Part shown: positions 2,288 to 28,734 of the stretch, in pieces | Position numbering within the stretch: position 1 is the first letter of the stretch | Layout of the letters: each line of letters opens with the position of its first letter | From: Patescibacteria group bacterium | GTDB lineage: Bacteria > Patescibacteriota > Microgenomatia > Levybacterales > UBA12049 | Reading direction: 5' to 3' | Length of the DNA: 41,452 bases | Assembly: GCA_023484045.1 (NCBI GenBank) | Contig: JAMDAA010000036.1 | Coordinates: 1-41,452, forward strand | Notes under the pieces: model-generated | The model's input: the letters and a program-made list of their open reading frames with translations, nothing else | Told to the model about the DNA's origin: nothing | The model's database searches: none | Made by a program: the position numbers and the translations under genes

Positions 2288-4042
2288 ATGCCAATCGCAA
2301 AAAAACTGATAATTTCTGAAGTAAAAAAAATCTTAACAGAAATGGGGTTTAATGGTCTAGAACCCATAGTGGAAATTCCCCAAGATTTATCTCACGGCGA
2401 TTACACATCGAATATTGCAATGACAATATTCTCAAAATCAACCCTTCGACTTCGCTCAGGGCAAGATTTCAAATCACCGATGGAATTGGCCGAAAAAATA
2501 GTTCAAAAACTATTAGCCTCGCAAGGCGACGCCCTGCGAGGCAAGATTTTTAAAATAGAAGCTGGAAAACCGGGTTTCATAAATTTTTGGCTTTCGAATG
2601 AGTACTTATTTAATAGTTTGATACAGAGTGATAGACAAAGAGAGAAAGGAGATAAGTCGCTTGACGGTAAGAAGATTCTGGTTGAGTATGCGCACCCCAA
2701 TACGCATAAAGAATTCCATATTGGACATTTAAGAACAGCTGTAATTGGTGAGTCGATATCAAGACTTATTGAATACGAAGCAGGAAAAGTTCTCAGAACT
2801 AATTATCAAGGAGACATTGGGCCACATGTGGCCAAAGCCATCTTTGGCCTAATTCATAATTCAGAATTCATAATTCAGAATGCGGAGCAAAGACCGCTTG
2901 GGGAACGGATTAAATTTCTTGCCCAGGGTTATGCGAAGGGGAATAAGGCGTATGAGGAAAACGACGAAGCCAGAAAAGAAATTCAGGAAATAAATGTCAG
3001 TTTGTATAAGGGAGAGGAAAAATATAAAGAAATCTGGGAAACAACTAGACAATGGAGTTTAGAATATTTTGAAACAATTTATAAAAAGCTCGGTATAAAA
3101 TTTGACAGATTGTTTTTTGAAAGCGAAACATTCCAAAGGGGGAAAGAGATTGTGTTGAAATATTTGGATGGAATCTTCAAAAAAGACCAAGGGGCGATCA
3201 TTTTCAAAGGGGAAGACTATGGACTTCATAACCGCGTTTTTGTCACCTCAGAAGGCTATGCAACATATGAGGGAAAGGAAATGGCCTTGGCCTTTTTGGA
3301 ATATGAAGCATTTCCTTTTGATCTTGCTCTTCACGTCGTCGCGCAAGAACAAGAAGGATATTTTAAAGTCGTTTTTAAGGCGTTGGAATTGATCGACCCC
3401 AAGTTCAAAAATTCCGAGAAACATCTGTCTTACGGGATGGTCGAGCTAAAGACCGGAAAAATGTCGTCAAGGAGCGGAAATATTATAAGCGCTTTTTGGC
3501 TTATCAACGAAGCGAAAAAAAAGATAAAAAAAGAGTTCACAGAAATCGGTGAAGAAGTGGCCGAAAAGGTGGCAGTAGGTGCGGTTAAATACTCGATGTT
3601 AAGATTTGCGAAGAATTCGAATATCAGTTTTTCTTTTGATGAGTCAATAACACTTCAGGGAAATTCTGGGCCATATCTCCAATACACGTACGCTCGCACA
3701 CAAAGTGTGCTAGCTAAAACTCAAAACTCAAAACTAAAAGATCAAACTCAAAACTTAAAGATCAAAACTAAGGACCTAAATCTCGAGGCGGAGGAGGCGG
3801 CGGTTTTGCGTCAGTTAATCCAGTTTGAAGAGGTAGTCAATAGTGCGGCAGAAAACTTTGCCCCAAACTTAATTTGTAATTATATTTTCGATTTAGCCCA
3901 AAAATTTAATCTTTTTTATCAAAAATACCCGATTTTAAAAAGCGAAAAAGAAGAATTCAGACTTATGCTTAATGAAGCAGTCGGAGACAGGCTCAAAGAA
4001 GGCTTAAATCTTCTAGGAATAGAGGCACTCGAAAGAATGTAG
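2288..4042 (+). CDS. argS: Arginine--tRNA ligase
   Basis: HIGHLRTA and KMSSRSGN class I motifs, GDIGPHVAK, C-terminal YLQYTYAR...LLGIEALERM. Confidence 0.96.
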   Translation: MPIAKKLIISEVKKILTEMGFNGLEPIVEIPQDLSHGDYTSNIAMTIFSKSTLRLRSGQDFKSPMELAEKIVQKLLASQGDALRGKIFKIEAGKPGFINFWLSNEYLFNSLIQSDRQREKGDKSLDGKKILVEYAHPNTHKEFHIGHLRTAVIGESISRLIEYEAGKVLRTNYQGDIGPHVAKAIFGLIHNSEFIIQNAEQRPLGERIKFLAQGYAKGNKAYEENDEARKEIQEINVSLYKGEEKYKEIWETTRQWSLEYFETIYKKLGIKFDRLFFESETFQRGKEIVLKYLDGIFKKDQGAIIFKGEDYGLHNRVFVTSEGYATYEGKEMALAFLEYEAFPFDLALHVVAQEQEGYFKVVFKALELIDPKFKNSEKHLSYGMVELKTGKMSSRSGNIISAFWLINEAKKKIKKEFTEIGEEVAEKVAVGAVKYSMLRFAKNSNISFSFDESITLQGNSGPYLQYTYARTQSVLAKTQNSKLKDQTQNLKIKTKDLNLEAEEAAVLRQLIQFEEVVNSAAENFAPNLICNYIFDLAQKFNLFYQKYPILKSEKEEFRLMLNEAVGDRLKEGLNLLGIEALERM

Positions 4043-17644: not shown

Positions 17645-17722
17645 ACATTTACATTTATTAATATGGATTCTATTCTAAGTTGTTGCTTCTGTCAAATTGG
17701 TCCGCCTGTAACCGGGTATTTG

Positions 17723-17794
17723 TCGGGGTGCTGGGAATTGAACCCAGTGGCTCTCGGTCCCGAACCGAGCGTGATACCGGTTCACTACACCCCG
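17723..17794 (-). tRNA. tRNA-Pro(CGG)
   Basis: CGGGGTG TA GTGA ACCGGTA TCAC G CTCGG TTCGGGA CCGAG AGCCA CTGGG TTCAATT CCCAG CACCCCG A: full cloverleaf, no encoded CCA. Confidence 0.93.
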
Positions 17795-17835
17795 AACGTT
17801 TTCTATTTTAACCTTCTTAGTGTTAAAATACAAAT

Positions 17836-17862
17836 AAGTAGCTTAAGTTTCTTAAGTTACTT
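17836..17862. repeat. 9-mer palindromic array (3 units)
   Basis: AAGTAGCTT AAGTTTCTT AAGTTACTT. Confidence 0.8.
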
Positions 17863-17870
17863 AAAAGAAG

Positions 17871-18443
17871 ATGTTGCCCAAATATAAATACCTTTTAACC
17901 TACAGGTATTCAGAGATTGTCCATGATTTGACAGTAGAATTTACTAAAAGATTTATTTTGAGCAACTTTAGCAGCTTAGGAGAAAAACCTGACTTTAGGA
18001 CTGCTGATCAGATGAATCAAGCTGCCAGATCTGGTAAGCAAAATATTATTGAGGGAGTTGGGCAAAGCAGGACATCTAAAAAAGGGGAAATAAAGCTTTT
18101 AGGAGTTGCAAATGCTTCTCTAGAAGAATTACTCGCTGATTTTGAAGATTTCTTAAGACAAAGAAAGCTTAAAATATTTCCAAAGACACACTATAAAATA
18201 CAAAACTTTAGAAAAATTGCCTTTCGGTTGACAGCATTAAGTAACTTAAGTCACCTAGGTAACTTAAAAGAAAAGCCAAATTTGCCAAAAAGTCCGGAAG
18301 AAGCCGGAAATTTTCTCCTTACACTTTGTCATCAGGTGACTTATTTGCTTTCGAAACAAATAAAAAGTCTTGAGGAAAAATTTATAAAAGACGGTGGATA
18401 TTCAGAAAACTTGTTTAAAAAGAGACTAAATAGTAAAATATAA
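17871..18443 (+). CDS. Four-helix-bundle protein (23S rRNA intervening-sequence protein-like)
   Basis: FRTADQMNQAARSGKQNIIEGVGQSRTSKKGEIKLLGVANASLEELLADFEDFLRQ pattern. Confidence 0.8.
   Translation: MLPKYKYLLTYRYSEIVHDLTVEFTKRFILSNFSSLGEKPDFRTADQMNQAARSGKQNIIEGVGQSRTSKKGEIKLLGVANASLEELLADFEDFLRQRKLKIFPKTHYKIQNFRKIAFRLTALSNLSHLGNLKEKPNLPKSPEEAGNFLLTLCHQVTYLLSKQIKSLEEKFIKDGGYSENLFKKRLNSKI
18239..18265. repeat. 9-mer palindromic array inside the CDS (3 units)
   Basis: AAGTAACTT AAGTCACCT AGGTAACTT, encoding LSNLSHLGNLKEK. Confidence 0.8.
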
Positions 18444-18468
18444 GTCGCCTAAGTTACTTATGTGGCTT
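18442..18468. repeat. 9-mer palindromic array (3 units)
   Basis: AAGTCGCCT AAGTTACTT ATGTGGCTT. Confidence 0.75.
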
Positions 18469-18475
18469 AAGATTT

Positions 18476-18547
18476 GTCCCCGTAGTTCAACGGATAGAAC
18501 AGACCCGTCCTAAGGGTCCAATGGAGGTCCGACTCCTCTCGGGGACG
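18476..18547 (+). tRNA. tRNA-Arg(CCU)
   Basis: GTCCCCG TA GTTC AACGGATA GAAC A GACCC GTCCTAA GGGTC CAAT GGAGG TCCGACT CCTCT CGGGGAC G: cloverleaf with CCT anticodon. Confidence 0.93.
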
Positions 18548-18567
18548 CTAATGCTTCTCTCGCCAAT

Positions 18568-18603
18568 AAGTAACTTAAGTCACTTAGGAAACTTAAGTTA
18601 CTT
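18568..18603. repeat. 9-mer palindromic array (4 units)
   Basis: AAGTAACTT AAGTCACTT AGGAAACTT AAGTTACTT, just before the sortase ATG. Confidence 0.85.
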
Positions 18604-18608
18604 AAATT

Positions 18609-19343
18609 ATGAGCAAGTCTGAAATTATTCGTTTTTTAATTCTCCGTTCGATTGGGAATTTTTTGCTGCTTTTTGCGATTTTTGGGGTTGTCGCAACTTT
18701 TGGCCCTACACTTTATTACGAAGCAAGGTTTCGCATTATTCAGGCGAGGGGAGTGACTTATAAAGTTGAAGATCCTGCTGTTGATACAGGAGTTATAGTT
18801 AGCGGAGAAGGACTGCGAAAGGTTTTGCAAAGGCAAAACGAGACTCAAGTCCCAGTGGGCTTTGCAGAACTTCTTCGTGGTCCAAAAGAGCATGTTTTGA
18901 TACCAAAAGATACACAATTTAGTATTTTGATACCAAAGATTGGTGCGAGTTCAAAAGTGTTTCCAAACGTAGATGCATCCAACGAAAAAGAATTTTTGCC
19001 AGTTTTACAAGAAGGAGTTGCCCATGCCAAGGGTACGGTTTTTCCTGGGAATTTGGGCAATATTTATCTTTTTGCCCATTCAACCGATAATTTTTGGGAT
19101 GTTGGGCGATACAATGCTGTTTTTTATCTCTTAAAAGACTTGTCAAAAGGTGATGATATTATAGTTTTCTTTCAGGACAAAAGACATAATTATGTAGTTA
19201 CGGATTCGATAATAGCTGATCCAAAAGACGTTTCTTATATAGTAAATAGCCAGCAGACAGGAGAAGAAAAACTTATTTTACAAACCTGCTGGCCACCCGG
19301 TACAACATGGAAACGCTTGATAGTTATCGCACGTCCTAAATAG
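18609..19343 (+). CDS. Sortase family protein
   Basis: N-terminal TM; GNIYLFAHSTDNFWDVGRYNAVFYLL (catalytic His region), LILQTCWPPGTTWKRLIVIARPK (TC...R). Confidence 0.9.
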   Translation: MSKSEIIRFLILRSIGNFLLLFAIFGVVATFGPTLYYEARFRIIQARGVTYKVEDPAVDTGVIVSGEGLRKVLQRQNETQVPVGFAELLRGPKEHVLIPKDTQFSILIPKIGASSKVFPNVDASNEKEFLPVLQEGVAHAKGTVFPGNLGNIYLFAHSTDNFWDVGRYNAVFYLLKDLSKGDDIIVFFQDKRHNYVVTDSIIADPKDVSYIVNSQQTGEEKLILQTCWPPGTTWKRLIVIARPK

Positions 19344-19369: not shown

Positions 19370-19449
19370 GCGGTAGGGCGAGCCTCGCCTTCGGCGGGCC
19401 GCCCGGAACTACCTGGAAGAGATTGATTGTGATCGCAAGACCCAAATAA
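19370..19449 (+). pseudogene. GC-rich palindrome plus synonymously diverged second copy of the sortase C-terminus
   Basis: cgagcctcgccttcggcgggccgcccgg joined to PPGTTWKRLIVIARPK*, identical at protein level to the sortase end. Confidence 0.85.
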
Positions 19450-22034: not shown

Positions 22035-22098
22035 ACTCAAAGTTCAAATGTCAAATCTCAAATCTACATCTAAAATCTCAAAGTTTGATAAGTTTTAG

Positions 22099-28281: not shown

Positions 28282-28686
28282 ATGTCAAATCAAAATTCAA
28301 ATTTCAAAAATCAAAGTCTAGATAAAAAATCAAAGCCAGAAGTTCGGTATCGAGCATTTTATTTGTCGATTGATATCATTAAGTTTCTTGATAAATTAGA
28401 ATATAAACAATCAGTCAAAATAATATCCGATCAGTTGATTCGATGTGTTACCTCAATCGGGGCAAATATTGTAGAAGCAAAATCATCTTCTTCTAAAAGA
28501 GAATTTCTAAATTACTTTCAAATAGCTCTAAAATCCGCAAATGAAGCAAAATATTGGCTTTTTATGTTAAAAGAATTATTCCCCAAGGAAAAAGAAGAAA
28601 TAGATATTTTTCTAAAAGAAGTGGATGAGATTTCAAGAATTATAGGAACAAGTATATTAACGATGAAAGGTAAAAGAAATCTTTAA
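28282..28686 (+). CDS. Four-helix-bundle protein (23S rRNA intervening-sequence protein-like)
   Basis: IISDQLIRCVTSIGANIVEAKSSSSKREFLNYFQIALKSANEAKYWLFMLKEL. Confidence 0.85.
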   Translation: MSNQNSNFKNQSLDKKSKPEVRYRAFYLSIDIIKFLDKLEYKQSVKIISDQLIRCVTSIGANIVEAKSSSSKREFLNYFQIALKSANEAKYWLFMLKELFPKEKEEIDIFLKEVDEISRIIGTSILTMKGKRNL

Positions 28687-28734
28687 GCTTTAAACTAGGA
28701 TTTGATTTTTGCTTTTTGATTTTTAATTTATTTT

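Follow-up and report, generated by a model that had tools for sequence, protein, structure and literature searches.

Palindromic 9-mer arrays bracket a four-helix-bundle IVP gene in a tRNA slot of Patescibacteria, a candidate mobile cassette

Introduction

Why should a small gene next to a tRNA be surrounded, and even interrupted, by short arrays of one palindromic 9-mer? The question is raised by a locus in a 41,452-nucleotide stretch of Patescibacteria DNA, the whole of which is called here the window. A first-pass annotation had described the gene as 23S-IVP-like and had suggested either a small mobile unit or a protein that binds these sites. We know of no function for the IVP (S23) proteins, which came to light in the early 1990s in the intervening sequences of 23S rRNA, nor do we know of any mechanism by which short tandem arrays such as the STRRs propagate. 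The 23S rRNA intervening sequence (IVS) has been described as selfish and of unclear functionality, with an IVP ORF inside it and inverted repeats of 28 bp at its ends (PMC4990558), and the TAACTGA heptamer arrays of Beggiatoaceae were described without a mechanism and with no link to IVPs (PMC4679880). The open-access PMC literature yielded no earlier description of IVP genes with tandem arrays; curated family notes may hold a remark, and this absence is no proof.

Results

Four 9-mer arrays at a locus between two tRNA genes

The left border of the locus is tRNA-Pro(CGG) (17722..17794, minus strand; found with ARAGORN and Rfam RF00005), which delimits an insertion slot conserved in the family. 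On the plus strand it is followed by a promoter-like element, GTGTTAAAATACAAA (17820..17834), so named from its position, and by array 1 (17836..17862), with three exact units AAGTAGCTT AAGTTTCTT AAGTTACTT. Next comes a suffix-type IVP gene of 190 aa (17871..18443, plus strand), identified by profile search, an AlphaFold2 model and fold search, whose product ends in a TIGR04258 four-helix-bundle suffix. Array 2 (18239..18265, plus strand; units AAGTAACTT AAGTCACCT AGGTAACTT) lies inside this gene, in the linker before the suffix, where it codes LSNLSHLGNL, and array 3 (18442..18468, plus strand; units AAGTCGCCT AAGTTACTT ATGTGGCTT) occupies a station just past the stop codon. A degenerate fifth array in the loop of the N-domain (about 17960..17982, plus strand) codes LSNFSSLG, residues about 30-36, at a station where relatives have clear arrays. 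The right border of the slot, as defined by slot comparison, is tRNA-Arg(CCT) (18476..18548, plus strand), and array 4 (18568..18603, plus strand; units AAGTAACTT AAGTCACTT AGGAAACTT AAGTTACTT) lies between it and a sortase gene (18609..19343, plus strand; PF04203), a host neighbour outside the cassette. Directly downstream of the sortase gene, positions 19384-19446 contain a partial second copy of its 3' end (about 21 residues, 81% identical).

The four arrays of period 9, with three to four units each, that the first-pass annotation had placed at 17836, 18239, 18442 and 18568 were confirmed; all consist of AAGTNNCTT units, several of them with one or two mismatches. It had also proposed looking for further 9-bp arrays across the genome: allowing at most one mismatch, AAGTNNCTTAAGTNNCTT gave 11 matches in the whole assembly (900,077 bases, 38 contigs), all at the window locus and none dispersed, and the reversed control gave 0. 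The RNA of array 1 is predicted to form a 12-bp hairpin, and the predicted fold of the region is more stable than those of shuffled sequences (z -3.8). Provided that the promoter-like element is real, array 1 would make up the first transcribed bases.

The gene encodes an IVP bundle with array DNA in two loops

The window protein scored above the cut-off against TIGR02436 (33 bits, cut-off 24) and, at its C-terminus, against TIGR04258, the NCBIfam 'four helix bundle suffix' (54.9 bits, cut-off 40), and just under it against PF05635 (31.4 bits, cut-off 33.8). Its AlphaFold2 model, based on 19 sequences (pLDDT 88, pTM 0.83), has helices at residues 9-29, 42-64, 70-97, 108-120, 142-173 and 179-188, and the array-encoded segments correspond to the loops 30-41 and 121-141. 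In a Foldseek search with this model the top four matches were chains of 2rld, a member of the S23/IVP family, with probability up to 1.0 and E 0.1 or worse. Since the array-encoded segments are two loops of the model and the nearest fold is 2rld, the window protein is an IVP bundle in which array DNA encodes two surface loops; by profile and by fold it belongs to the IVP / S23 four-helix bundles, as the first-pass annotation had suggested. A profile search of the gene returned the IVP and suffix domains only, with no Y1/HUH transposase domain, and no phage homologues were found.

Occupied and empty tRNA slots

With the neighbouring sortase gene as a guide, we recovered 25 homologous loci of the family. 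The genes for tRNA-Pro and tRNA-Arg adjoin each other in most of these, and many of the 20 loci whose slot has no suffix gene have the two tRNAs at most about a hundred bases apart. The slot contained 9-mer arrays in all five loci with a suffix gene there (L242, which is the window locus, L244, L252, L265 and L266) and in 0 of the 20 without (p=1.9e-5); the latter provide the empty tRNA-Arg flanks that had been suggested for comparison. The outcomes named as refuting the association, arrays spread at random or tRNA flanks with arrays and no IVP gene, were not seen at the Pro/Arg slot, although dispersed gene-less arrays occur in other genomes (see below). tRNA-Arg is the host site and lies outside the unit.

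In many loci without a suffix gene a conserved TGTGcTAAAATACAAat version of the promoter-like element directly precedes tRNA-Arg (for instance L250, L251 and L261), and in the window the element ends at 17834 and array 1 begins at 17836. Because the element abuts tRNA-Arg in empty slots and array 1 in the window, the cassette splits tRNA-Arg from its presumed promoter. From its place between this element and the mature 5' end of tRNA-Arg(CCT), the suffix gene is probably transcribed on the precursor of this tRNA.

The same Pro/Arg slot is filled by a G-rich-type suffix gene in L265 and, in inverted orientation, by a TATA-type suffix gene in L070. Suffix genes also lie between two tRNA-Ala genes (L103 and L108), and further ones adjoin tRNA-Ile or tRNA-Pro(GGG); 17 of 63 suffix genes have a tRNA neighbour. 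The simplest reading is that tRNA neighbourhoods have been used repeatedly and independently. In L025 and L252 the suffix gene and the full tRNA-Arg are separated by a partial copy of this tRNA, which may be the scar of an insertion into the tRNA leader.

Suffix genes have arrays at four fixed stations

Most of 20 relatives of the window protein (55-72% identity), which come from several candidate phyla of Patescibacteria, have AAGTNNCTT arrays in the same places. Combined with the suffix genes gathered from 110 genomes of the class, they gave 63 non-redundant genes for analysis. Period-9 arrays were concentrated at four fixed stations, namely ahead of the start (4.11/kb), in the N-domain loop (2.93/kb), in the linker before the suffix (7.23/kb) and just after the stop (2.51/kb), against a background of 0.04/kb in the gene core and 0.17/kb more than 350 bp away. 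This excess held against an intergenic-only control (5.46 vs 0.77/kb), no other period was comparably enriched at the stations, and at least one station was filled in 55 of the 63 genes. The physical association of the IVP gene with palindromic arrays, first noted at the window locus, is thus a regular feature of its relatives, and the array-free empty slots agree with it.

Each gene has one unit, with stations of the same gene more alike (similarity 0.729) than those of different genes (0.520; p=5e-28), and the units are more palindromic than under a column-permuted control (p=9e-21). Each protein subfamily also has a unit of its own: the more identical two proteins are outside their array-encoded residues, the more similar are their units (Mantel r=0.684, 0 of 2000 permutations), a correlation to which joint inheritance may contribute in part. 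The unit types, named by eye from the arrays of suffix genes, include TTAAGTNAC (window locus), TATANGWCN, AATTNGNCN, CATGAGACT, TATAACNGT and a G-rich type, which is non-palindromic and whose orientation is reversed from one station to another. In the window genome a second suffix gene, on contig C23, has its linker station occupied by a TATA-type array. The type i suffix gene of a Chisholmbacteria contig (L035) is surrounded by numerous long arrays that have period 9 but other units (GTACAAGAG, GATAAGGGA and GTAGTACAG), as if several array families coexisted.

Plain IVP genes have inverted 7- or 8-mer arrays

The window contains a second IVP gene, which is plain, that is, without a suffix (28282..28686, plus strand; matching 2rld by sequence, E 2e-13). 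One 7-mer array lies at its start (28286..28316, plus strand; CAAATCAAAATTCAAA..) and another, in the opposite orientation, past its stop (28700..28731, minus strand; ATTTGATTTTTG..). Plain IVP genes generally have inverted arrays of period 7 or 8 near their start and stop codons. Among 31 such genes of the class, the density of 7-mer arrays was 4.99/kb within 100 bp vs 0.21/kb far away (about 24-fold) and that of 8-mer arrays 1.61/kb vs 0.014/kb (over 100-fold); under a strict threshold, 15 genes had arrays on both sides, 12 on one side and 4 on none. When upstream flanks were compared with reverse-complemented downstream flanks, the two flanks of one plain IVP gene agreed far better than flanks of different genes (p=1e-10). 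Solitary period-7 arrays of a similar style (CTCAAAT, AATTCAT/AATTCAG and AAAACTC) also occur in the window at 22036-22068, 2847-2886 and 3712-3742, none of them close to a detected IVP gene.

Plain IVP genes with inverted arrays were also found on named plasmids of Nostoc, Dolichospermum, Aulosira, Planktothrix, Euhalothece, Bernardetia, Treponema and Chlorohelix, spanning four phyla (cyanobacteria, Bacteroidota, Spirochaetota and Chloroflexota). A plasmid of Nostoc sp. C052, for example, reads (AATTCGT)4-gene-(ACGAATT)4, and another Nostoc plasmid (L200) has single inverted flanks and no clear array. On two Nostoc plasmids (L202:1228-2130 and L240), an array-IVP-array cassette breaks the gene for a DNA cytosine methyltransferase, of which L238 and L239 have intact copies. 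These events are replacements of about 190-330 bp, and clean insertion of IVP cassettes in Nostoc was therefore rejected. On four plasmids (L207, L201, L206 and L208), plain IVP cassettes are flanked by genes from defence-like operons (DISARM helicase drmD, BREX PglX, N-6 DNA methylase), apparently as passengers.

In Prevotella nigrescens (Bacteroidota), a suffix protein 34% identical to that of the window has a CTAGGNNNC-type 9-mer array 48 bp past the stop of its gene, and three more intergenic arrays occur on the same 568-kb replicon (control 0). With 7/8-mers at plain IVPs and 9-mers at suffix IVPs, the period tracks the absence or presence of the suffix in every phylum examined, the suffix/period-9 part of this rule being represented outside Patescibacteria by one species, P. 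nigrescens. As a cross-phylum rule, this apparent dependence of the repeat period (9 vs 7/8) on the branch of the IVP family looks new.

Arrays dispersed away from the gene

Among the 110 genomes of the class, the strict type i pattern occurred in 13, 11 of them with a suffix gene (p=4.6e-5), and the type ii pattern in 17, 15 of them with a suffix gene (p=2.4e-7); the type v G-rich pattern, found in one of the 110, is too strict to inform. Reversed-pattern controls gave 0 in every genome scanned and other periods were not enriched, and an origin of the arrays by chance or composition was rejected on these grounds. Arrays of the same unit as the resident gene were found elsewhere in G028, G031, G095 and other genomes, both between genes and inside unrelated genes. 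Four genomes have arrays and no detected suffix gene (G099, G024, G012 and G042; two of type i, two of type ii), and in G044, G056 and G071 some distal arrays mismatch the unit type of the resident suffix gene. One of the genomes without a detected suffix gene, G042, contains four identical copies of ATAGGACGAATAAGACAAATAAGAC (contigs C28 and C41), which may represent some longer repeat.

Those dispersed arrays that lie in coding genes, murG and a DNA ligase gene among them, fall at loops; neither of two array-bearing proteins that were checked had PDB homologues. We compared the murG array of G028 with 22 homologous loci. It is written over a loop and adds a net 9 nt or 3 residues, equal to one extra unit, relative to a sister genome, and relatives already read NLxYL at this site. 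Clean insertion of the murG array was rejected because the loop is overprinted, and the pattern suggests instead the nucleation of an array at microhomology.

Discussion

We favour, at somewhat better than even confidence, the reading that the window locus contains a mobile or once-mobile IVP cassette, whose protein would recognise the cognate arrays and help them spread. The cassette consists of a 9-mer array, an IVP-plus-suffix gene with arrays in two surface loops, and a further 9-mer array, placed between a presumed promoter and tRNA-Arg(CCT). This structure, the occupied and empty slots, the pairing of unit and protein and the dispersal of arrays were observed, whereas recognition and mobilisation are inferred. 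Its product, probably a four-helix bundle with the S23/IVP fold that forms oligomers, would bind its own palindromic array either as DNA or as the hairpin RNA made from it, and may promote the nucleation and spread of arrays at microhomologous sites with the help of host enzymes for replication and repair. The plain IVP genes and their inverted 7/8-mer arrays would then be elements of the same kind, and the 23S rRNA IVS is plausibly their rRNA-resident relative. Counting against a mobile cassette are the lack of a catalytic enzyme within it and of a reverse transcriptase in the window genome, the gene-less arrays of some genomes, the type mismatches, the murG overprint, the Nostoc replacements and the share that joint inheritance may have in the covariation of unit and protein. 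The interpretation first offered for this locus, taken as a whole, is partly supported; it did not include the subfamily-specific unit, the inverted 7/8-mer arrays of plain IVP genes or the position in the tRNA-Arg leader.

Two other explanations share a protein that binds the arrays. In one, the gene is autoregulated by a sequence-specific binder, the arrays are its operators, those at a distance make up a small regulon, and nothing is mobile. Heptad arrays are the operators of plasmid omega repressors, and contiguous palindromic units specific to the protein, arrays upstream of both the window gene start and the sortase gene, and the intergenic location of some dispersed arrays would all suit this role. 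However, the station after the stop codon and the two stations in coding loops are not operator positions, many dispersed arrays lie within coding sequences, such as murG and the DNA ligase gene, and the gene and its arrays come and go together at the tRNA slot. We consider a pure regulon unlikely.

The second explanation, to which we assign a rather low probability, is an RNA-level element like the 23S rRNA IVS, in which array hairpins in the precursor RNA are bound by the protein and released by RNase III and RNase P, with no role for DNA. It accords with the position of the cassette between promoter and tRNA, with the 17 of 63 suffix genes that adjoin tRNAs, with the 12-bp hairpin of array 1 and the stability of its region against shuffles (z -3.8), and with the inverted 7/8-mer arrays of plain IVPs, which resemble the terminal stems of the IVS (PMC4990558). 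Yet gene-less arrays dispersed in coding regions require a DNA-level route, the majority of suffix genes have no adjoining tRNA, and the IVS-encoded protein is itself without a known function, even in Coxiella. Ordinary slippage-prone minisatellites tolerated in loops and gaps, with the IVP link reflecting the hitchhiking of two selfish or neutral kinds of sequence, would account for array sites at places that tolerate insertions, for a 9-bp period that preserves the reading frame and for the overprinting in murG, but are very improbable given an enrichment seen at IVP genes alone, with a single period class in each subfamily, one unit at all stations of a gene, similar units in related proteins and far fewer arrays in intergenic control regions.

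Several known systems resemble parts of the mobile cassette that we favour. Avd of diversity-generating retroelements is an IVP-like four-helix bundle. Avd acts with an adjacent reverse transcriptase, whereas the window genome has no match to PF00078, and a reverse transcriptase was found in 6 of 40 IVP-rich genomes. Spread driven by reverse transcriptase in the manner of Avd was therefore rejected as a general route, the enzyme being absent from the window genome and from most of the IVP-rich genomes and present in few of the class.

Like the 23S rRNA IVS of Leptospira and Coxiella, which is regarded as selfish or mobile (PMC4990558), the cassette has a small IVP ORF, with putative inverted-repeat borders, and lies inside the putative transcription unit of a stable RNA. 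Both ends of the window cassette are palindromic arrays, of which array 1 is predicted to fold on itself, and inverted arrays are seen at plain IVPs. It differs in location, between tRNA-Pro and tRNA-Arg, the hosts here being a tRNA leader or an intergenic region, in having tandem 7/8/9-mer arrays as borders, and in the occurrence of arrays inside the gene and dispersed without it.

The REP/REPIN sequences with their RAYT (TnpA-REP) proteins offer another parallel, in that short palindromic repeats flank a gene and disperse without it, and the repeat type is tied to the protein subfamily (PMC3116915, PMC8266576). Flanking arrays together with dispersal were seen in G028, G031, G095 and P. nigrescens, and the window genome has no dispersal. 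RAYTs, however, are HUH-type Y1 transposases acting on hairpins, whereas the window protein is a four-helix bundle without known catalytic residues and its repeats are tandem arrays. Finally, the STRR heptamers of cyanobacteria and the TAACTGA arrays of Beggiatoaceae are tandem 7-mers in and between genes of distant taxa (PMC4679880). Heptamer arrays in the style of STRRs bracket plain IVP genes on Nostoc plasmids, unlike the suffix-gene arrays of the window locus, whose period is 9.

A wider proposal, which we put forward as possible rather than probable, is that IVPs are the trans-acting factors of unrecognised array-bounded mobile elements in several phyla, each subfamily reading its own 7-, 8- or 9-bp unit and seeding and spreading arrays without a transposase or reverse transcriptase; this would explain the cyanobacterial STRRs, the TAACTGA-type heptamers and the origin of the 23S rRNA IVS. 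The pairing of each protein subfamily with its own repeat unit, which extends over several phyla and to cultured Nostoc and Prevotella, links the puzzle of IVP function to that of array propagation and makes both directly testable. In its tRNA leader, the window cassette points to a first candidate role for the IVP proteins and for these long-unexplained repeats.
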